Of a stretch of 64,000 nucleotides of DNA, positions 3,820-42,415 are shown piece by piece; the first letter of the stretch is position 1, and each line of letters opens with the position of its first letter. This DNA comes from Umbilicaria muhlenbergii (Eukaryota; Ascomycota; Lecanoromycetes; Umbilicariales; Umbilicariaceae), in contig KK106981.1 of assembly GCA_000611775.1 (NCBI GenBank), positions 2,409,954-2,473,953 of the forward strand. Reading direction: 5' to 3'. The position numbers were made by a program, and so were the translations under genes. The notes under the pieces were generated by a model. The model searched no databases and was not told the DNA's origin. It worked only from the letters and a program-made list of their open reading frames with translations.

Positions 3820-5059
3820 CTAGAACGGTGGCGGTGGTGCGGTACTACCAGCGGCCCTTTCTTGCTGCTCCATCAGGTCCTCACCCGCTGCTTCGATAGA
3901 CACGGCCAGCCCGATCTTAGCTTGCTGCTACAACAGTCAAGGGCGAGATCAGCAAAGAAAGCCCAACTTAGTAATTCAAGGGAAGCGTCCGATCGTGATG
4001 GTCCTCACGCTGGGTCTGACATACCTTGAACTGATCTATCTCTCCTGCAAAGGTTAACTGCACCGGTGGTGCGACCCTCTTCTCCAGCAGACAGCTCAAG
4101 CGCCCCGAGCTGTCCACCTGTGCCCTGAATGTTGAGGCCCTGAAGTCGTACTTCGCGCCGAGAGTGGTAGTGCCCTCTTTCCGCATTCCGTTTCCCATCA
4201 ATCCACTGCCCCTACCCCCCACACCGGGGGCGAATTGCAGGTTCAAATCGACGCCAGCCTCTACTTTCTCGGTCAACCTCCGCCAGTAGGAAGTGCTGAT
4301 AGCACCCTGTGCCTGCAACTGCGCAGATACAATCCAGTCACTCCCTTTGTACTTTGCTGAATATGAGACCGCAGTTTCCGGACCGGCGTTGAGTGCTGAG
4401 CGCTGCCACATTGCCTCAAGCCCCACAGCAAGACTAGGTGTCAACGACTGAAGATAGCTTGCAATAAATATTCCGGTCAACCCGCCTTCTAGCAACGATG
4501 GGTTTAGCGATTTGAGCGAGGCGGTGAAGTCCTTGCCGGTGTAGTCGTTGTCGACTTGCAGCATCGCTTGACCGGGCCCGGGGGCTATCTGAGCATTGGT
4601 CTTGGTGACGAACGAGTTGGTCCATCGATAGTTTGCCCGGGCAGCTAGTTGACCGTCATTGTCGATGCTGCCTTGCAGGAACACCTGAGTACCATTGTAT
4701 CAGTACGAGAATACGAAGACCCAACGAGCTTTTGACAGTCCGCGTACCTTTGATGTTCCGTATAGTGCAGCAAACGTGTATGGCGGCAAACCTTGCGATC
4801 CCATAGAGAATGCATGTGAGACGTGGAACAAGGGCGCAACACTGAAGGCTTTTGTCAGGTCCGCCCGAAGCCCAGTAAACATGTAGTGTTGAAGAAAGAC
4901 ATCCTTCTGGACCTCTCGCGCGATATTGTCGAAGGTTCCAGGATTCGATAGACCCAAAGCTTCTCGCCGTTCTGCAAACGATAGATATGTATCTCGTAAA
5001 GCCGAGACTATGGCATTCTCATTCATGAAGCCTACGGTCGCTATCTTTTCGTCCGCCAT
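3820..5059 (-). CDS. TOM40: mitochondrial outer-membrane translocase channel Tom40
   Basis: Tom40 is the beta-barrel pore of the TOM complex, through which nearly all nuclear-encoded mitochondrial precursors enter. Three exons on the minus strand: 5059-4748, 4684-4025 and 3927-3820, with GTACGC and GTATGT donors and CAG/TAG acceptors. The spliced product is 359 residues, the usual fungal length. The N-terminal segment with [20 protein letters not shown], the [16 protein letters not shown] junction across intron 1 and the [17 protein letters not shown] junction across intron 2 match the eukaryotic porin-3 family. The C-terminus is Ala/Pro-rich (STAPPPPF). The start is the first Met of the frame, [11 protein letters not shown]. 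It is divergent from the 6-phosphofructo-2-kinase gene, sharing a 686-base intergenic region. I am confident of identity and exon structure. Confidence 0.93.
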
Positions 5060-5745
5060 GTCAGAACATATGAGGCTTGCGCTCTAGCCAGAACAATGGC
5101 CGCACTTGCTGCAGTCGAGTAGTCGAGACTGGGACGGGGGGCAACGGCGGCGAGCGAGCGAAAAGGGGGCCGAGCAGATGGGGTTCTGGCTCCGCGAGTT
5201 GAGAAGCGTGGCCTGGACTTCTGAGATACAATTTAATCCTCGCTGTACGAATCTTAGGAGTTGCTTTGACGTACGCGAAAGCTTCAAGCTAACTACGGTG
5301 GCCGTGGGTGGCCTCAGTGGCCTTACCTTAGCCTTGTTGCGCCTGTGGTCGCTGCGCCCCACGCGGCCGTGAATGCCCGGAGGCTTATCGATAAGGTAAG
5401 CAGTCGGGATATCTCCTGTGCGAGGTCTCCAGCCAATGAGCCATCACTCCGTCCATCTGCTGACTCTTGCCCTCATCTGCACCCTTACCCTCGCCCTCGT
5501 CCGGTGTTCGGCGACAACAGAGACTTTAGCCGCTGGCGACATTGCACGGCAGAGCAGCAGAGACCAACAGTTCTGCGTCAACTGAGGTCCGTCACATAAC
5601 ATCTTCATACCCGCAACACGAGATATCGCCAGCTCGCTCGAGCTGGCGGTCCTCTTTTGCTTTTTCTCGAAGTGCAATCTGACAATAACGAGATACCTCA
5701 GCTCCAGTACTATTCAGGATATCGTTGAAAGTTGTGTTCGCAGCC
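5060..5745. promoter_or_regulatory. divergent promoter TOM40 / 6-phosphofructo-2-kinase
   Basis: This 686-base stretch separates two start codons facing away from each other, so it must hold both promoters. At 5384-5395 lies the perfect palindrome CTTATCGATAAG, which is two abutting inverted GATA-factor half-sites (CTTATC and GATAAG). The same 12-mer recurs in two other divergent promoters of this window, at 9547 and 40770. No other motif stands out. Confidence 0.6.
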
Positions 5746-8064
5746 ATGGATACCCTTCTGTATGAAACCATGCACCATAAAATGCGTTGTTTACCTCGAC
5801 TCGCCCGTGGATGAGCAAGACCTTGACAGAAGTGTGATACTCTGGAACATTGGCTGACAGCTTCTCATAGCACGGCGGAAGTCGCGGCCAATTCTCCACG
5901 TTTTCGGCGGAAGTCGAGTACCTTTGTCGATGCCATCCATGATTTGCCTCAGCGGGTGGAGATGGCGCCGGCACAGCTGTACAGCACGGAATCCGGCCGC
6001 CTATTCCACTCAGGGAGGATCGCGATTGCGACCGTTGGGCTACCAGCTCGTGGAAAGACGTACGTCAATGCCCCACATCCGCTACATTATAGCTCACAAG
6101 AGCCTACGCTGCAGGCATATCTCTGTGGCTCTAGCAAGATATCTAAGATGGTATATATCATTCAACTAGGCCACTCACTGATAGATTAGGACCAAGAAGC
6201 ACTGATTCGCAGCAGGCTTGGTGTCAAGACGAGGGTGTTCCACCTTGGAGACTACAGACGAGCCACCGTTGGCCCGGGTCAAGATGTCCCCGACGATTAT
6301 TTCTTCGTCAATGGTAAGAAGACCTCTCAATCGGACGATTGCGAAGTAGAGGTGGAAGCGCTGGACGACGGTGCGTTTAAATAATGATGCAAAAGCCAGA
6401 CATTATGCAAACGTACCGATATCGTCTCAGAATAAGCGTCTGATATATGCATGGCTTGCTGACTGACCTGGGGCAATTGTTATAGCTTCGGCGTCATCCG
6501 TTCTTCTCCGACAGAAGATTCTAAAGAAGTGTCGTGAAGACATATATCATTTCCTCAACCACGAAAACGGCCAAATAGCAATTTATGATGCAGTAAACCC
6601 TCTTGCAGCAGGCCGGAGATCTCTTGCAAAAGAATTTGCCAAACACGATGTGGAAGTACGAATTTCTGCCTCGAAACCCCGGAGTCATCTATCTGCCTCG
6701 ACTGGTACTGTCAGTGCAGCAGCTAACCATCAACGGCAGACTCTCTTTATCGAGTCCGCGTGTGATGATGAGCGAATCATCGAGGAAAACGTGCGCAGTG
6801 TGAAAATATCTTCACCCGATGTAGGTCCAAATAGCAAGCTTGGAGTAGCAACACAAAGCTGACTGTTTAAAGTACGTTGGCTGGTCTTCTGACGACGCAG
6901 TGAAACACTACCTGGCCAGGATCACCGCAAAGATTCCACATTTTGAGACCATGGAAGAACCTGACCTCAACTATATCAAGGTGTGTCGCGTTGTCCATTT
7001 TTCCGAATAGGCCATTGCGATAGCAAGTCTAATCACATGACAGATGATCAATGCTGGAGAGCGAGTGACCGTGAACAATTGTACCTTTGGCTACATTTCT
7101 CATAGAATAGTCTTCTACTTGCTGAATCTACACATCAAGTCAAGGCACACATACTTCGCTCGGGTAAGCCTGCGGTGGATCTAGGTAAGCATCGTCATCT
7201 GACCGTGACTTTAGGCAGGTACTTCCAGGGAAGAAGATTCGTATAAAGTAGACGCCTCACTCTCGGAGCAGGGAATAGAATACGCGAAGAAGATGGGTGA
7301 AACTCTACTTCGACACAGAGAAGAAGAGAGACAAGCGCTTATTGACCGAGGTGGACCTGATGCCCCTTTGAAGCAGTTGACAGTCTGGACTTCAACGAGA
7401 CGAAGAACGATAGAGACAGCTCAACATCTTTATGAGGGTGGCTACAGAATACGTCAAAGATCGCAGATGAGTCAGCTAAACCCGGGGGTCTGCGAGAAGA
7501 TGTCGGAAAAACGCATCAGAGCAGAATACCCAGACGAGGTTGCCAAGCATGAAGCTGATCCCTACCATCACCGATATCCCAGAGCTGAGGTGAGGAAAAC
7601 TACCCCCCATATACATGATTGCCTGGTAACTAAACTCGTTTTAGTCTTATCATGATCTAGCTGTACGAATGGAGCCCATCATCCTGGAACTGGAGCGCGA
7701 GCAAGACGATCTCCTCATCATCGCACATGAAAGCGTCCTCCGAGTGCTTTACGGGTACCTCATGGCCTGCAACGCTGCTGATATTCCAAGTCTGTCTTTT
7801 CCAAGGAACGAAATCATTGAGATCATTCCTGCTAGTTACAACAACGAAGCCAAGAGAATAATAATTCCAGACTGTCCCGAAGATATCATTCCAGGTTCAC
7901 CAGAGGACATTAAGATTCCTGTACCACCAAGCGGTGTTGTTACGCCCATGCCCGGCTTGGGCAGTCCTGCAGTAGGGCCAGGAACACCACAGAACGAGAT
8001 GCACAAGTCATTGGAACACCTCGATGCCGCCCATTTGCTTGTTGAACGGGCACTCCGTCCGTGA
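5746..8064 (+). CDS. PFK26-like: 6-phosphofructo-2-kinase with degenerate bisphosphatase domain
   Basis: Makes fructose-2,6-bisphosphate, the allosteric switch of glycolysis. Ten exons are proposed: 5746-5759, 5871-6059, 6115-6150, 6216-6313, 6486-6655, 6740-6820, 6873-6980, 7044-7163, 7215-7589 and 7645-8064, giving 536 residues. The kinase half shows the P-loop GLPARGKT, VFHLGDYRR and TLFIESACDD. In the histidine-phosphatase half the signature RHGE reads RAGT (across the 7163/7215 junction), so the catalytic His is Ala. The segment that normally carries the acid Glu reads LNPGVCE. The later His in IAHESVLR is kept. Yeast Pfk26 also lacks the catalytic His, so a kinase-only enzyme is likely. 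The long C-terminus is Pro/Ile-rich. The first, 14-base exon (MDTL) is the least certain part; everything from 5871 onward is firm. Confidence 0.88.
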
Positions 8065-8985: not shown

Positions 8986-9459
8986 TCAGCCACCATGGAG
9001 CGTGGATACAAATAATACACTGTCGCCATTCTGAAGCTCGTATGAACTCTCGCCCTCCAGTTCCCAATCGGCGTCGTTGATCAAGACGAGTATGCCGGGC
9101 CGCCTATGGGTGATAAGTCGCCTTGACTCTCATGTTCAGATAGTGAAGGGTCCACAGACACTGTGCCGTCCATGACGAAGAGCTCTTCCCTTCGAACTTT
9201 CATCAGATGTTGACAAAGGTACCGCACGAGAAATGCCACATTCGCAGTCTGCCCGGCCTCGTCCTTGGCTGGTAGTGAAATCCGGTGTTTTCGTTGGTTT
9301 GAGAAGAGCAACTCTAAGCCACCACTGAGGCACGTCAGTACCATATCCGCACCGTCGTTTAGGGGTAGCACCGTACGTAAATTCGACCGCAATCGGTACG
9401 GAATCCACAGGGTTCTCTTGGGTACCGTATTTGGAGCGCGTGCTGTCCATTTTGCTCAT
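8986..9459 (-). CDS. URM1: ubiquitin-related modifier Urm1
   Basis: Urm1 is the sulphur carrier that supplies thiol for 2-thiolation of wobble U34 in tRNA-Lys, -Glu and -Gln; it can also be conjugated to proteins. Exons on the minus strand: 9459-9377, 9324-9160 and 9103-8986, giving 121 residues. The beta-grasp core is clear: [32 protein letters not shown], then [18 protein letters not shown] and the last strand [12 protein letters not shown]. The Gly-Gly that is thiocarboxylated is the exact C-terminus, with the stop directly after it. Both introns are 52-56 bases with GT-AG ends. The first Met ([12 protein letters not shown]) was chosen; an internal Met three codons later is possible. The gene is divergent from ELP2, whose product acts in the same tRNA modification. 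Confidence 0.93.
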
Positions 9460-9647
9460 CTAAAATGTAGTATGAATAAGGCTATAAGTGTAGTCCAGCT
9501 CGACACTTGGGAAGGTTTGTCTTTTCAATTATTTCCGGAAGCAGTCCTTATCGATAAGCTCATTCTGAGTCCAGCCCCAAAACAATTTACCCATGCTGGC
9601 GAAAAGAATCCTGCATCAGCACTTATCGATGCTACCATCACTCGTCA
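9460..9647. promoter_or_regulatory. shared URM1/ELP2 promoter with central palindrome
   Basis: Only 188 bases separate the two start codons. The perfect palindrome CTTATCGATAAG lies at 9547-9558, 87 bases from the URM1 ATG and 89 from the ELP2 ATG, so almost exactly in the centre. A second, partial copy (CTTATCGAT) follows at 9622-9630. The palindrome equals two inverted GATA half-sites. One bound factor could act on both genes; that is inference. Confidence 0.65.
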
Positions 9648-12221
9648 ATGGTTAAGGTCTCTACAGACTACATCGCCGTGGGCGGTAATAGGCATCCTGC
9701 GGCGGCAGACTGGGATGCAGCAACTGGACTCCTCGCTTTCGGAGCAGATAACAACGTTGCGTTGTGGGACCCCCTGGTACTACCTTTGTTTCTGCCGTCA
9801 GATGCTTAAGAACGCTGATCGTGTAGACAGCAAGATCAACAGCGAGGCGTGAAAACTTTGCTGTGTGGTCACACGGACAAAGTCAATGCTGTCAAATTCC
9901 TTCCGCAGGCCTCAAGAGAGGCGCCGCTTGTACTCAGCGGTTCTGTGGATAAAACTATAAGAGTATGGCAAGTAGACTTGGAGTCGCCCACAGGGTATCG
10001 TGATATAGCCGTCTTGGAAGGACACGCAAGCTCTGTCAATTGCCTTGCAGTAACACCTGGCCGCAAGATCTTTGCTTCTGGATCTGCCGATGCTACCATT
10101 AGGATCTGGCTGGTTGATCTCACGGAGGACAACGGGGTACATACGTCGCTGCTGCAAGCCATCAAGATCACACCCAGGTATTTCCCTTTGGGCTTGGCAC
10201 TGATTGAGCTTGGGGAAACCGGAGCTCTGGTACTTGCAGCTGCAGGCACAAGGAGCAATATCCAGATATTCGTTACAGAGGGAGATCCACTCCATCTTAA
10301 TTTCATTCTGCGTGCGACACTTACAGGGCATGAGGGCTGGATACGCTCCTTGGCTTTTACGACAGACACTAATGACACCGGCAGTGATGTGCTATTGGCT
10401 TCTGCGAGCCAAGACAAATACATCCGTCTATGGCGCATCCACCGAGGCATGGACCTCCCCGCCTCAAATACTGTGTTGGGGGCATTCGGAAAATCGTTGT
10501 CAAACAAGGCCCACAAACTTGAAGCTGCAGGCAGCGACTACTCATTAACCTTCGAGGCCTTGCTGCTTGGCCACGAGGACTGGATCTATACAGTAGGATG
10601 GAGGGTCAACAGTGGACGTACTCAACTGCTTTCGGCATCTGCCGATAACTCTTTGGCTATCTGGGAGTCAGACGCCAGCTCAGGTGTTTGGATTTGCACA
10701 ACGCGTCTGGGCGAGATAAGTGCACAGAAGGGATCAACGACCGCCACAGGCAGCACCGGCGGTTTCTGGATAGGTCTGTGGTCTCCAAGCGGAGAATCGG
10801 TGGCAAGCCTCGGGAGAACGGGCAGTTGGAGAATCTGGAATTACGATGGCACTCAGAAACGTTGGGAGCAGGGTTTGGGTACTAGTGGTCATGTGAAGGA
10901 TGTCACCAGCATCTCTTGGGCGGTAGACGGATCTTATCTGCTTTCGACGGGCTCGGACCAAACAACCAGGTTACACGCTGAGTGGAGACGAGGTACAACA
11001 CGCTCATGGCACGAATTTGCCAGGCCTCAAATCCATGGCTATGACATCAACTGCATAGATTCGCTAGGAGAATCTCAATTCATCTCAGGGGCGGATGAGA
11101 AGCTCCTTCGTGTGTTTGATGAGCCGAAAGCTGTTGCACAATTGCTGGAGAAACTATGCTGCATCAGCGGAATATCCACTCAGGACATGGCCGATGCTGC
11201 TAACATACCCGTGCTAGGACTATCTAACAAGGCTGTCTCGGCTGTCGCAGACGTTGAAAACACCGTGGAGGGTGAGCAAGAGATAAAGGATCTAACCTTT
11301 GAGCTCCCAAAACCGACCCTTGATCTCACTCATCCGCCATTCGAAGATCATTTGGCCAGACACACGTTGTGGCCAGAGAGGGAGAAGTTGTACGGGCATG
11401 GCCACGAGATCTCTGCCGTTGCCGCAAGCCACGATGGTACTATTGTGGCTACAGCCTGCAGGGCCAGCTCGATTGACCACGCTGTGATTCGGTTGTATGA
11501 TACGCGGGAATGGCGGGAAATCAAGCCACCACTGACAGCACATTCTTTGACCGTAACACGTCTGCAGTTCTCGGATGATGACCGGTTCTTGCTTAGCGTT
11601 GGCCGCGACAGGCAGTGGACCGTGTTCGGACGAGGAGAACTAGGAGGAGATGACGACGCTGGACCGTACCAGATCCGATCTTCGAATCCGAAAGGCCATT
11701 CAAGGATGATTCTTGATGCGGCATGGGCTCCCAGTTCAGCAGCAAGGTGTTTCGCAACTGCTAGCAGAGATAAGTCTGTAAAGATTTGGCTTGCCGAAGC
11801 AGACTCTTTCGCATGTAAGGCAACAGTACCCGTTTCGTCCTCGGCAACCGCGGTCGCTTTCTTGCCGCACCTCCTGCATGGACTGCTTCATCTTGCCATC
11901 GGAACGGAAAGTGGCGAAATATCTGTACAGTTTTTAGATCTGTCTGCCCTAAAAGCGGACAATTTCTATAAGTTTGACAGAAGGTGAGCATTTGCAAATA
12001 AAGCGCTCCAGCCATGTGATTCTGACTTGTACAGGATCTCTCCATCAACGTCTGTCACCCAGTTGTCGTGGAGGCCACCGTCGAGACAGTTCACGACAAG
12101 CAGAGATACCGAAGATCATCAGAATGAACAGCAAGCCATTCACTTGGCGATCGCTTGCGGAGATAGCTCACTACGTTTATGCTCTATCCGAAACATAAAC
12201 TATCCTGGACGGCCCCAATAA
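9648..12221 (+). CDS. ELP2: Elongator complex subunit 2 (WD40)
   Basis: Elp2 is the double WD40-propeller scaffold of Elongator, which adds the carboxymethyl group at wobble U34 (mcm5U) of tRNA. Exons: 9648-9776, 9831-11983 and 12035-12221, giving 822 residues, the usual size. The N-terminus (MVKVSTDYIAVGGNRHPAAA, then DWDAATGLLAFGADNNVALW) is typical of Elp2. Many WD repeats follow, for example LLCGHTDKVNAVKF, VLSGSVDKTIRVW, ASASQDKYIRLW, LLSASADNSLAIW, LLSTGSDQTTRLH and FATASRDKSVKIW. The last exon supplies the closing blade (HLAIACGDSSLRLCSI). Splicing across 9776/9831 joins DPL to QDQQRGVKTLLCGH in frame. It is divergent from URM1; both products build mcm5s2U34. Confidence 0.95.
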
Positions 12222-37997: not shown

Positions 37998-40185
37998 TTA
38001 GACGACAGCCACCACAGCAAGAGCGATCTGGAAGAAGTCAGACAAACAGCCCCGACTCAGGCGGAAGACCTCGCAACTTACTATAGCGCCGATAACAAGC
38101 AGTCCGAGAACAGACATGATGCGGTTGATATTCCGCCACCACCTAGCATTCTCGTAGCGAGCCTCGTCGATAGAGATAATCGCCTTCTCGAGATCTCGTT
38201 CTGCTTTGGAGCGACTCCGTGTTTGAGATTGCTCTTCCCGAAGCATCGGCTTCAGAGGCAGTGGCAGGAACGAGGCGACAATCCACGCTAACAACCCCAT
38301 CTGTCAGACACATTCATCTATCCATAAGGGGCCACAGGAAAAAACGTACCAAGAGGAAAGAGAAAGCCAGCAGCAAACAGCAAGATCTGCAACGTCCTTC
38401 TACTCCCGCCACTTCCTTCTGCCTCTTCATCGATGCTAGGGGCTTTGAAGATACTTCTGCGCGCTCTAGCTCTCCTGTCATGCCACAAATGCGGCGACCA
38501 TTCCTCGGTCACCTTGCGTCTGGCAGGACCTCGGATTTCCACCGGCGTGTCACCAGCAACCACGACGGGAGTGATTGCCATGGAGTCGCGAGTTGGAGGA
38601 GCCGTATCATCCTCACGCTGGCGAGTTCGGGGTCGAAAGATCCCCAAAGCAAGATTATCATCAGGGCGGGCGACTCTACTTTGTGGACGGCTGGCAGTAT
38701 TCGCGCCGGAAGAACCGGGGGGAATCGAAATGGAATCTCGAGGAGGGCGGGCGTAATAAGTTCTAGTGATGTTATCAGCTTTGCTCGACTGCCGCACTAT
38801 AGTTCTCCTTGCGGTTTGTGGTTGGTGCTCTCTACGTACCTCGCCCATGTTGGAATGCCGAGAAAGCTTCCTCTCGTTGCTGGTCTGGTGGGTGATGCCT
38901 CTCTTCGATTCTCCCGATTTGAATCCCTTGATAACTTGCCGAAGAACGCTGTGCCAGACGAACGTAGTGGTGGGCCAGGTTGGTCTGGCAAATTTACATC
39001 TTGATTGCCTACCACTCGGATTGTCAAATCGGAACCGTGTCGTTGGTGGCCCCAAGCGGGCACTGGCGGCAATGGATGGTTTGACGCCTCGCCCTCTAAC
39101 CTCGAAGACCTATTGCCTGGAACTAATGAAGATTGGATGTGCAAACTACTACTGCTTCTGTCATCGGAATACTCGGATTGCACAGTCGAGAGATGGGGAT
39201 TCCATTTCTGTAGGGAGCTGCGACTGCCCAAGCGCAACGGCCGCTTTGGAATATTCTCCGACGATTCTGCCCAGGACCCAGAAAACGCAGGTGGCCGAAC
39301 GACGGGATACTGGACGTCGGATCCACTGTCAATCGCTTCCTGAAGGCTAGCATGGGAGGTTGTAGAGGAGATACGGCGGTCTTCGGGGGTAAATGAAGCT
39401 GATGACGCTGGGGAGTACTGCTCGATCGAGCCGTTGACTATCGGCTTGGGCGGCGTCCAGGGAGCTTGATAAGATCTGGACGAATCGGGCCGAGAGCTCG
39501 AAGTCGGTGGGAATGCAGAGTATAATGGGCGTGAAGATCGATCCCTAGTCTTCCTGATGACAGTAGCCGAAGACTCTGTTGAGGAGAGCGAGTTTTCGGA
39601 AATCTTTGAGGGGAGAAATCCTCGACTTGCAGCATCCTGGAAGCCTAACCCGGATGAGGCCGAACGTGATGTACCTGTGCTGCCGTCTCTGCTATCCACC
39701 CGCGGTAAGCTAGGAAGCTCGATGATCTCATCGGAGACGGGCCGCGCTGAACCATGTCGGCTCCAGGCCATGGGGTCATACTGCACATCTAGGGAAGAAG
39801 GCAGTATGTTTTCGACCGAGTCTGGGGCATCTGGTATAACAGTAGGGTTCGACTGCACTCCAATGCCTGATCCTCTGCTAGAGGCTACATCCTGTCTAAC
39901 GTTGCCTTTCGCTATGTGTAGTGGCATTGGCGCTAACTCTTTCTCTGGACCATCGTTATCTGAGACATCGGCTTCATCCTCAAACACCCATCCCTCCCCT
40001 CGACCGTTGGGCGGAAGGACCTGCGACGCTTGGGTAGGGAAAGGGCTACTTCGATAGATTGTAGCTTTGGGGTCATCGATGCTGCGTAGAGAAGGTAGCA
40101 AGAGCTCATTGGTGTGTGATTCGGATCTTTCGTGGAGTGCCCGCCGCGGGGGTGAGCGCCTCAGTGTGCGTGGAGGGGAGGGCAT
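37998..40185 (-). CDS. serine-rich protein with two C-terminal membrane segments
   Basis: Four exons: 40185-38840, 38762-38350, 38287-38082 and 38027-37998, giving 664 residues. About the first 550 residues are disordered and rich in Ser, Pro and Arg, with many possible phosphosites (for example PSPPRTLRRSPPRRALHERS). The C-terminus has a hydrophobic segment, LQILLFAAGFLFPL-AWIVASF, created by splicing across the 38350/38287 intron. A charged loop containing ARWWRNINRIM follows, then a second segment, VLGLLVIGAIIALAVVAVV, which ends the protein. This layout, a long cytosolic tail anchored by a membrane hairpin, recurs in uncharacterised fungal serine-rich proteins. The function is unknown. 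It is divergent from RCE1. Confidence 0.82.
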
Positions 40186-41095
40186 GACGGGTCATTAATC
40201 GCATTACGCTGAAGAAAGCTCTTGGGAAAGAGATTGTCGGATCGTACGGACTGTACTCGTAAGGAAAGTTTAGGGGATGGGGACGAAGTGAATTAAGAAA
40301 GTGTATGTAGGTAGTTTAAACGATTGACAAGAAGTATGAAATGAGCGACTAGAAGAGTAAAGGAAAGAAAGGGTTGGCCGGGTCACACTGGAGTGAAGGT
40401 GATGAGTTTCAAAAGTACAGAGAATAGAAAAAGAGAGAGAAAGAATTGGCGCTGTTGCAGCAGAAGCAGGGTGGGCGCGGGGGGTGGGACGTCGAGTTAG
40501 GGGGGGGGGGTGGGTGAATAATATCGAATAATATAAGAATACTGGTTCGGCGATGCTTGGCTGTAACCCATGCGAACTGCACGCCCGCGGTCATGCGACG
40601 CCAGCTCTAACAATCGCCGTTGACGATGGACGCTGCCGTTGCCAAAACGGTGAAACTGGCTTCCAGCGTGGAAAGCAATGCGAAGGTTGAAGTCATCACT
40701 CGGTGATGGAGCAGGAATGCCAGACTGAGGAGACTGTTCCCCAGCAACACTTGCATTCGTGAGCACTTTCTTATCGATAAGGCAACGCGTGCCGGGGACG
40801 ACACGTCTCCGCTAAAATTATCTAATTTCTGCTGCGCGTTCTGCTTTTCTTATAAATGTAAAATATCCGATTGGGGCTGGATTGAAACGGGCAGAAGCTT
40901 GGTGCGAGTAGCGGCGCGAAGATGTCATAGCCGCAAGTTCATTCAACTCCAATCAGCCTTGCCAGCCGAGACGTTTGGACGACTTCTGAATCCGTTTCAT
41001 GCCTGTCACATGTTCTTCTTATAGCTTGGTGGACTGAGGACCAGGCCTTGTTCGCGTTTGGAGACTTGCCTGTTTTTGCTAATATTGTCGTTGTG
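40186..41095. promoter_or_regulatory. divergent promoter, serine-rich gene / RCE1
   Basis: 910 bases between opposite start codons. The palindrome CTTATCGATAAG sits at 40770-40781, the third copy in the window. The left part has G-rich tracts (near 40500) and purine runs. Confidence 0.55.
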
Positions 41096-42415
41096 ATGAT
41101 GGCGCCGACGGGTTTCCTTCAGCAGCTAAAGAGCTACTACACCAAAGACGCTGGTGGGTTACCCCTACATTGGCTGGCATCCATGTAGCCATCGAACTCA
41201 ACAAGAACATCGGACTGTGGTCCTGGCAGAGACAACGATACTGATTATGGGGCTGTAGACAAAGACCGACCGGTCATTTCTGCTAGAACGGCTGCACTTC
41301 TCTCTGTAAGCAAAGTGAACGTTCATATTACGCACCATACCTTGTATTTTAACTCTCAAGCCCTTATGTCAACGCACAGTATCTGCTTAGTCTTTGAACT
41401 TTGAGTGCTACGCCCAGTTATCTTTCACAGTCTATCATGGCATTCATATAGCTTTATCTTTCACATTATATCATGCCCTTTTATCTATAGCTTGATTTGT
41501 CACTATCAAAATCTATCCTGAGACCTAAGCTCATACCCCCTCCAGGTCGCCTACACCCTCCTCTACGTCATCCCCTTCTACCTCTCCCCCACCACCCGCC
41601 CCTCCCCCTCCCTCTCCCGGGACGCCCCCTCCGTCATCCGCGCCCGCATCCGCGCCGTCACCCTCTCCACCACCCTCAGCACCCTCTCAACCATCTACAT
41701 CCTATCGACCCTCCCCTCCGCCTCCCTGTCCTCAACCCTCCGTCTCCTAGGCTGGTGGCCCATCCACCCCCTCGACATCGCCCGCACCCTCCTCCTAACC
41801 GCCCTCCTCTTCTCAGGCCCGCTATTCGAAAAAGGGATCATAGAAAACGGATGGCGCGACTGGATGCGCGGACGTTCCCTCCACGCCACCCTCAGCAGCT
41901 GGATCGGCTGGCGCAACTTCATCGCTGTGCGCCCCCCGCGTATCGTCTTCTTCACCCCCCTCTACTTCGGCATCGCGCACATTCACCACTTCTACGAATA
42001 CACCCTCACGCACCCGCACACGCCCCTCCTGCCCGCCCTCGTGCGCTCCCTGATCCAGTTCGCCTACACCACAATCTTCGGCTGGTACGCCACCTTCGTC
42101 TTCCTGCGCACGGGCAGCTTACCCGCCGTCGTCCTCGCGCACAGTTTCTGCAACTGGTGCGGCTTGCCGAGGTTGTGGGGACGGGTGGAGGCGGGGGAGC
42201 CGATCGGGCCGCCGGATGTGAGGGGGAAGGATGATGGGGATGGTGGGGCCGGGGGGAGGGGGAGTGGAAGGGTGGAGGAGGGAAGGTTGGGGTGGGGGTG
42301 GACGGTGGCTTATTATGTTATTTTGTTCGCGGGGGTGGGGGCGTTTTATAGAGGCTTTTGGTTGCTGACGGAATCGTCGGGGGCTTTGGCGGAGTTTGGG
42401 GGGCGGAAGAAATGA
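41096..42415 (+). CDS. RCE1: CAAX prenyl endopeptidase Rce1 (type II)
   Basis: Rce1 is the ER intramembrane protease that removes the last three residues of farnesylated or geranylgeranylated CAAX proteins such as Ras and Rho. The large exon 41546-42415 is firm. The proposed upstream exons are 41096-41157 and 41206-41305, giving 343 residues in frame (start MMAPTGFLQQLKSYYTKDA; the next Met is equally likely). Motif one is SGPLFEKGIIENGWRDWMRG, where the usual Glu-Glu pair reads Glu-Lys. Motif two is FGIAHIHHFYEY and motif three is LAHSFCNWCG. Hydrophobic helices alternate as expected. A Gly/Asp-rich insert near residue 280 precedes the last helix. Intron 2 (240 bases) is long for this window and contains a tandem duplication. 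Confidence 0.85.

Follow-up and report, generated by a model that had tools for sequence, protein, structure and literature searches.

A strict palindrome of two abutting GATAAG hexamers marks promoters in Umbilicaria muhlenbergii

Three copies of the palindrome and their neighbour genes

The window analysed here, a stretch of 64,000 nucleotides that forms part of contig C1 of the Umbilicaria muhlenbergii genome and has intron-containing genes, as befits a fungus, contains three perfect copies of the 12-letter palindrome CTTATCGATAAG. As an earlier note on this DNA had described, the palindrome is built of two GATAAG hexamers, inverted and abutting, and its copies start at 5384, 9547 and 40770. 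Copy 1 (5384..5395, adjoining bases G..G) lies between a TOM40-like gene of the Porin_3 family (3971..5059, minus strand; Pfam PF01459, E 2.6e-58 on 3971-4699), the N-terminal exons of which were assigned by eye, and a PFK-2/FBPase-2-like gene with a His_Phos_1 domain (5746..8064, start approximate, plus strand; PF00300, E 9e-11 on 7215-7652). It stands 324 bases from the TOM40 start codon (minus strand, 5057-5059). Copy 2 (9547..9558, adjoining bases C..C) lies in the middle of the 188-base spacer between a URM1-like gene (9084..9459, partial, minus strand; PF09138, E 9.4e-9 on 9084-9455) and an ELP2-like WD40 gene (9648..11984, as far as mapped at its 3′ end, plus strand; Pfam WD40, E 2.7e-50 on 9819-11984); the predicted start codons of URM1 (complement 9457-9459) and ELP2 (9648-9650) are 87 and 89 bases away, respectively. 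At 9622-9630, shortly before the ELP2 start codon and 75 bases from copy 2, this spacer also holds a partial further copy, CTTATCGAT with GC after it. Copy 3 (40770..40781, adjoining bases T..G) lies between a serine-rich open reading frame (38800..40185, minus strand), which has an HMM coding signal and no Pfam match, and an RCE1-like CAAX protease gene (41096..42415, plus strand; PF02517, E 5.1e-9 on 41522-42412); the predicted start codons are 584 bases (complement 40183-40185) and 314 bases (41096-41098) away, respectively. Pfam supports the neighbour names of the earlier note at the level of Porin_3, His_Phos_1, Urm1, WD40 and Rce1-like domains, whereas TOM40, PFK-2 and ELP2 are labels taken over from it.

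The whole-genome scan that the earlier note had proposed as a check found 27 copies of CTTATCGATAAG in 34.79 Mb (seven contigs). Markov models (order 1-5) predict 0.8-1.5 copies; their training set was 264 kb from the window and 20 loci, from which the palindrome sites had been taken out. The reversed control word does not occur anywhere in the genome, and not one copy turned up in 100 dinucleotide-shuffled versions of the window. These three results rule out a chance origin, and the recurrence beyond chance that had been claimed for the window thus extends to the genome. It is likewise extremely improbable that the 12-mer was multiplied as part of a transposon or with duplicated promoters. 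To have three of the 27 copies within 36 kb, all inside the window, is out of the ordinary (post hoc P about 0.009), and the genome does contain inverted GATAAG pairs of other spacings that look like repeat families, the members of each having the same spacer (8, 5 and 3 copies). However, the surroundings of the 27 sites are dissimilar by eye, the adjoining genes differ from one another, and the rule on adjoining bases described below is kept at all 54 ends. Because the flanks are unrelated, CTTATCGATAAG is not a repeat, and a repeat family as its source was rejected. The 27 sites are somewhat clustered along the genome: five pairs lie no more than 36 kb apart, where 0.71 would be expected (P 0.0014, post hoc); without the three sites of the window, there are two pairs against 0.57 expected (P 0.11).

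Strictness of the element and geometry of GATAAG pairs

Sites with at most one mismatch to CTTATCGATAAG number 96, of which 69 are spread over 36 one-mismatch words (48 sites for the one-mismatch words of the reversed control). One of these variants, GTTATCGATAAG, the sole one searched individually, is enriched, with 14 sites in its two orientations against 1.4-2.1 expected from the Markov models; the remaining 34 words together account for 55 sites. The 10-base core TTATCGATAA occurs 66 times in the genome (control 18), and in 41 of these sites the outer bases are C..G or have one of the two swapped between G and C (27 + 14). The other 13 combinations of outer bases share 25 sites, which is about twice their Markov expectation (13-17 for TTATCGATAA over all 16 combinations), so the strictness is strong and not absolute.

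A further rule concerns the base that adjoins the palindrome on either side. An A on the left or a T on the right is absent from all 54 ends, including the 46 ends of the first 23 sites, and the 13-mer consisting of A followed by CTTATCGATAAG has no match in the genome. A direct count over all 27 sites gave G 22, T 17 and C 15. The full element is therefore best written B-CTTATCGATAAG-V, in which the first base is not A and the last is not T. Apart from this rule, the sequence beyond the 12 bases looks unrelated between sites.

No other arrangement of GATAAG pairs comes near 27 non-repeat sites at one spacing. Inverted pairs separated by one to ten bases total 32 sites (reversed control 7), with at most 11 at any one spacing, and eight of those 11 have one identical spacer and look like a single repeat family. 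Everted pairs with spacings of zero to ten bases number 33 (control 12), two of them at spacing zero, and direct pairs over the same range number at least 103, counted in two orientations, against at least 51 for the reversed control. All geometries exceed their reversed controls, partly through repeats, so GATAAG pairs as such are mildly enriched. A degenerate GATA pair, whatever its spacing and orientation, was nevertheless rejected as a general explanation, the counts being far below 27 per spacing. Two of the repeated arrangements are CTTATCTTCTGATAAG (or its complement), which occurs eight times with an identical spacer (for example at C1:639501, C2:1521536, C3:3177131 and C6:1654030), and CTTATCAATTATGATAAG (or its complement), which occurs five times in the genome; both are probably parts of dispersed repeats.

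The GATAG version of the palindrome, CTATCGATAG, is not enriched genome-wide (14 sites; control 19; Markov 17-28). Outside palindromes, the sampled sequence has 13 single CGATAAG words in the part called non-coding (133 kb) and four in the part called coding (131 kb); the reversed word occurs there 14 and 12 times, respectively, so the half-site alone has no clear promoter enrichment here. Nor is there an excess of further HGATAR sites within 250 bases of 23 palindromes (14 against 23.1 in shuffles). A search for co-occurring motifs around these 23 sites gave nothing convincing; GC-rich words topped the list because the flanks are richer in GC (53.0% against 48.8% for non-coding sequence).

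Promoter location and the question of divergent promoters

Gene models around the sites were built from a simple home-made coding HMM and Pfam searches on single exons, with PDB matches for some, using about 5 kb on each side of 20 sites, the window for three and 0.6 kb on each side for the remaining four; 49.7% of the sampled sequence was called coding. Every one of the 27 sites has at least one predicted gene downstream of it and none lies in a convergent spacer, which marks CTTATCGATAAG as a promoter element. At 24 of the 27 sites, the downstream gene is matched in Pfam or the PDB; at the other three (L020, L021 and L036), it has a coding signal alone. Four of 23 sites fell within coding segments in a first HMM run (L017, L024, L027 and L031) and two in a second (L024 and L031). 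These four were judged non-coding because the open frames are free of domains and look low in complexity; the L024 and L031 sites lie inside such frames. At the loci examined, CTTATCGATAAG occurs once per promoter, mostly no more than a few hundred bases from the predicted coding start.

Sixteen sites are divergent, two of them weakly supported (L030 and L039), seven are tandem and four could be settled on one side alone. Besides the three in the window, the divergent sites separate SEC18 from a Cir_N gene (L017), CRT10 from a DAO-family FAD-dependent oxidase (L019), two open reading frames neither of which is convincingly matched (L020), RRP43 from an unnamed gene (L022), Hikeshi from a NUDIX gene (L023), phosphoketolase from acetate kinase (L026), DUF3605 from an FAD-NAD reductase (L027), TFIIF-beta, about 1.9 kb off, from a PSMD12-type proteasome subunit (L029), SBDS from a hydrolase that scores under its Pfam cut-off (L033), SDA1 from an unnamed gene (L034), and an ArsA-GET3-like gene from HIUase (L038). 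The weak cases are OsmC and an unnamed gene with an intervening 94-residue open reading frame on the other strand that has no Pfam match (L030), and a short open reading frame that has neither a Pfam match nor HMM support paired with a GST gene (L039). The AAA protein at L017 was considered as a ribosome-assembly ATPase and rejected, its PDB match being SEC18. Phosphoketolase and acetate kinase stand head to head across one palindrome-bearing spacer (L026:2675-5936).

Tandem sites adjoin DIL and allantoicase genes (L018), two unnamed genes (L021), an SDR gene and a kinase under its cut-off (L025), a lyase and a kinase (L028), SEP-UBX and NUBPL-type genes (L035), an open reading frame that looks amidase-like by eye, without Pfam support, and a 2OG-oxygenase (L036), and COG4 and NFACT (L037). 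On the sites settled on one side, the gene is CNS1/TTC4-like (L016), BCD1 (L024), Ras-like (L031) or SNF2-RING (L032). To the left of the SNF2-RING gene, nearly 5 kb (L032:1-5000) are free of any called coding segment and are possibly a gene-poor or mutated repeat stretch. A PDB search with five open reading frames (one each from L021, L030 and L034, two from L020) gave no match at E 0.01. As a set, the target genes have no single clear function; in our judgement, housekeeping genes seem to be common among them.

The earlier note had placed each copy in a divergent promoter and had suggested that the palindrome could set transcription in both directions, a reading taken here as that of an element dedicated to bidirectional promoters between head-to-head genes. 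The placement is correct for all three copies in the window and for 16 of the 27 genome-wide, with seven in tandem spacers. Spacers away from the sites comprised 20 divergent, 35 tandem and 33 convergent ones (n = 88), or 14, 31 and 23 with a stricter cut on gene length (n = 68). Against these spacers, the divergent sites are in excess (16/27 versus 20/88, p about 5e-5; 14/27 with the two weak cases dropped, p 9e-4). However, each divergent spacer holds two promoters, so of the promoters in the sampled loci 40/75 are divergent (or 28/59 with the stricter cut), and against this null the excess disappears: p is 0.34 for 16/27 and 0.64 for 14/27, 0.09 for 16/23 when only the resolved sites are counted, and 0.15 (16/27) and 0.39 (14/27) under the stricter null. 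The proposed enrichment in divergent regions thus holds over spacers and is not seen over promoters. A proportion near 16/27 would be expected here of any element close to promoters, so that the special tie to divergent promoters is not supported. The central position of copy 2 in the URM1/ELP2 spacer agrees with a bidirectional role, yet the position of the site varies between loci, and the TFIIF-beta partner starts far from its site. Taken with the tandem sites, we regard a dedicated bidirectional element as quite unlikely. CTTATCGATAAG marks promoters; the singling out of divergent ones is not borne out, and the frequent location in divergent spacers follows from CTTATCGATAAG being a promoter element.

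Candidate binding factors and known systems

We consider it probable that CTTATCGATAAG forms the core of a promoter element, strict and symmetric, that a sequence-specific factor binds as a dimer, taking the palindrome as a single unit, at some 27-40 promoters. At roughly one helical turn in length, with its fixed spacing and a single copy in each promoter, the strict palindrome is the kind of site that a symmetric protein dimer would require. From the symmetry and the fixed spacing we infer that a dimer would bind at CTTATCGATAAG and activate transcription; to this extent the earlier proposal of a dimer site agrees with the sequence. As the palindrome has no direction, it can act for a single gene or, where two genes diverge from it, for the two together, and the URM1/ELP2 spacer, with the site almost equally far from the two start codons, would be the cleanest case of serving both.

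The nature of the binder is less clear. A GATA-type zinc-finger dimer that needs GATAAG on both strands is one candidate, which we put forward tentatively: such a finger fits the hexamers, but the intolerance of GATAG and the absence of other GATA sites are misfits. A less likely reading takes the palindrome as two ordinary sites of a nitrogen-type GATA factor (AreA/NIT2, HGATAR) that form a palindrome by happenstance. Promoters of the AreA/NIT2 type typically carry several GATA sites each, at variable spacing. The two inverted GATAAG copies resemble such sites, HGATAR fits both half-sites (CGATAAG on both strands), GATAAG pairs of other geometries are mildly above their controls, and nitrogen-catabolism genes adjoin some palindromes, namely allantoicase, HIUase and the DAO-family oxidase, with the amidase-like frame as a possible fourth. 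In contrast to AreA/NIT2 sites, the spacing here is fixed at zero, CTATCGATAG, an equally good HGATAR pair, is not enriched, everted or otherwise spaced pairs remain far below 27, GATA sites do not cluster around the palindromes and are, if anything, fewer there, and many named targets are not nitrogen genes. The earlier reading as a pair of GATA-factor sites is thus right about the half-sites and doubtful as an ordinary pair, because the GATAG version and further GATA sites are unenriched and other geometries are far lower; the lack of nearby GATA sites in particular disfavours an ordinary AreA-type cluster. Allantoicase and HIUase had pointed to a purine-catabolism regulon, which was also rejected, as neither the uricase nor the ureidoglycolate lyase gene (0/2) has TTATCGATAA nearby among the places listed on C1 and C3. 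The palindrome is a variant form of an already known type of site; a GATA reading of it is possible and, in its ordinary form, not favoured.

The yeast PAC element, CGATGAG, is linked with Dot6/Tod6. It differs by one base from the half-site CGATAAG and has some target types in common with the palindrome, and it is conceivable, though rather unlikely, that CTTATCGATAAG is a growth or ribosome-biogenesis element with a role comparable to that of PAC. Four neighbours (SDA1, SBDS, BCD1 and RRP43) are clear ribosome-biogenesis genes. In Fusarium graminearum, the available part of one study describes M26, YGATAAG, as a conserved promoter motif with 393 occurrences and an enrichment (score 10.9) in a cluster of nucleolar genes, 38 of the 128 having it, and likens GATAAG-containing motifs to AreA sites (Kumar et al. 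2010, PMC2853525). The likeness is evident: CGATAAG is an instance of YGATAAG, both are promoter-located, and the nucleolar genes in that part of the study recall the four ribosome-assembly or rRNA-processing neighbours here. M26 has seven bases, whereas the enriched unit here is the whole abutted palindrome. As the Fusarium search, so far as its available text tells, started from heptamers, it may have caught half of such a palindrome; that text contains no description of the palindrome itself (PMC2853525). Against a ribosome-biogenesis role, these genes account for only four of the 27 loci, the surroundings of the sites are not enriched in PAC-like CGATGAG words, and single CGATAAG sites are few (13 non-coding and four coding, as given above). 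An RRPE-like word occurs within 300 bases of only 5/23 sites, and the apparent RRPE enrichment, which arises from these five, was dismissed. PAC, moreover, is not palindromic.

The Drosophila DRE, TATCGATA, bound by DREF/BEAF, is linked with housekeeping, often divergent, promoters. This octamer forms the centre of CTTATCGATAAG, but it is insufficient here, where TTATCGATAA with outer C..G is needed: CTATCGATAG contains the same octamer and is not enriched, whereas TTATCGATAA occurs 66 times against 18 for its control. The DRE has also been reported in ribosome-biogenesis promoters, according to the available part of PMC2570694; we do not claim that the binding proteins are homologous. Among the literature matches listed for TTATCGATAA, TATCGATA and CGATAAG, none was found to describe the palindrome, with logos in figures lying outside such a text search; the fungal-text matches checked for TTATCGATAA and for CGATAAG, one each, were both primers. 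The strings ATCGAT, GATAA and CGATA are absent from the main text of PMC4046813 and PMC11708053, and the available part of PMC8419926 does not name the palindrome.

More speculatively, and with a probability that we put well below even, a novel fungal transcription factor might bind as a dimer to the strict palindrome of 14 bases, B-CTTATCGATAAG-V, at a single site in each promoter, and organise a few essential-gene promoters in the manner of a general regulatory factor, as a counterpart of the fly DRE/BEAF system in role and not in descent. From a biological perspective, so strict a site in so few, often housekeeping, promoters points to one factor. To our knowledge, few promoter codes of filamentous fungi are known beyond nutrient regulons. 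The exact 14-mer is a ready bait for that factor and the 188-base URM1/ELP2 spacer a ready reporter, and the GATAAG-containing motifs of fungal genomes may belong to a factor other than AreA.
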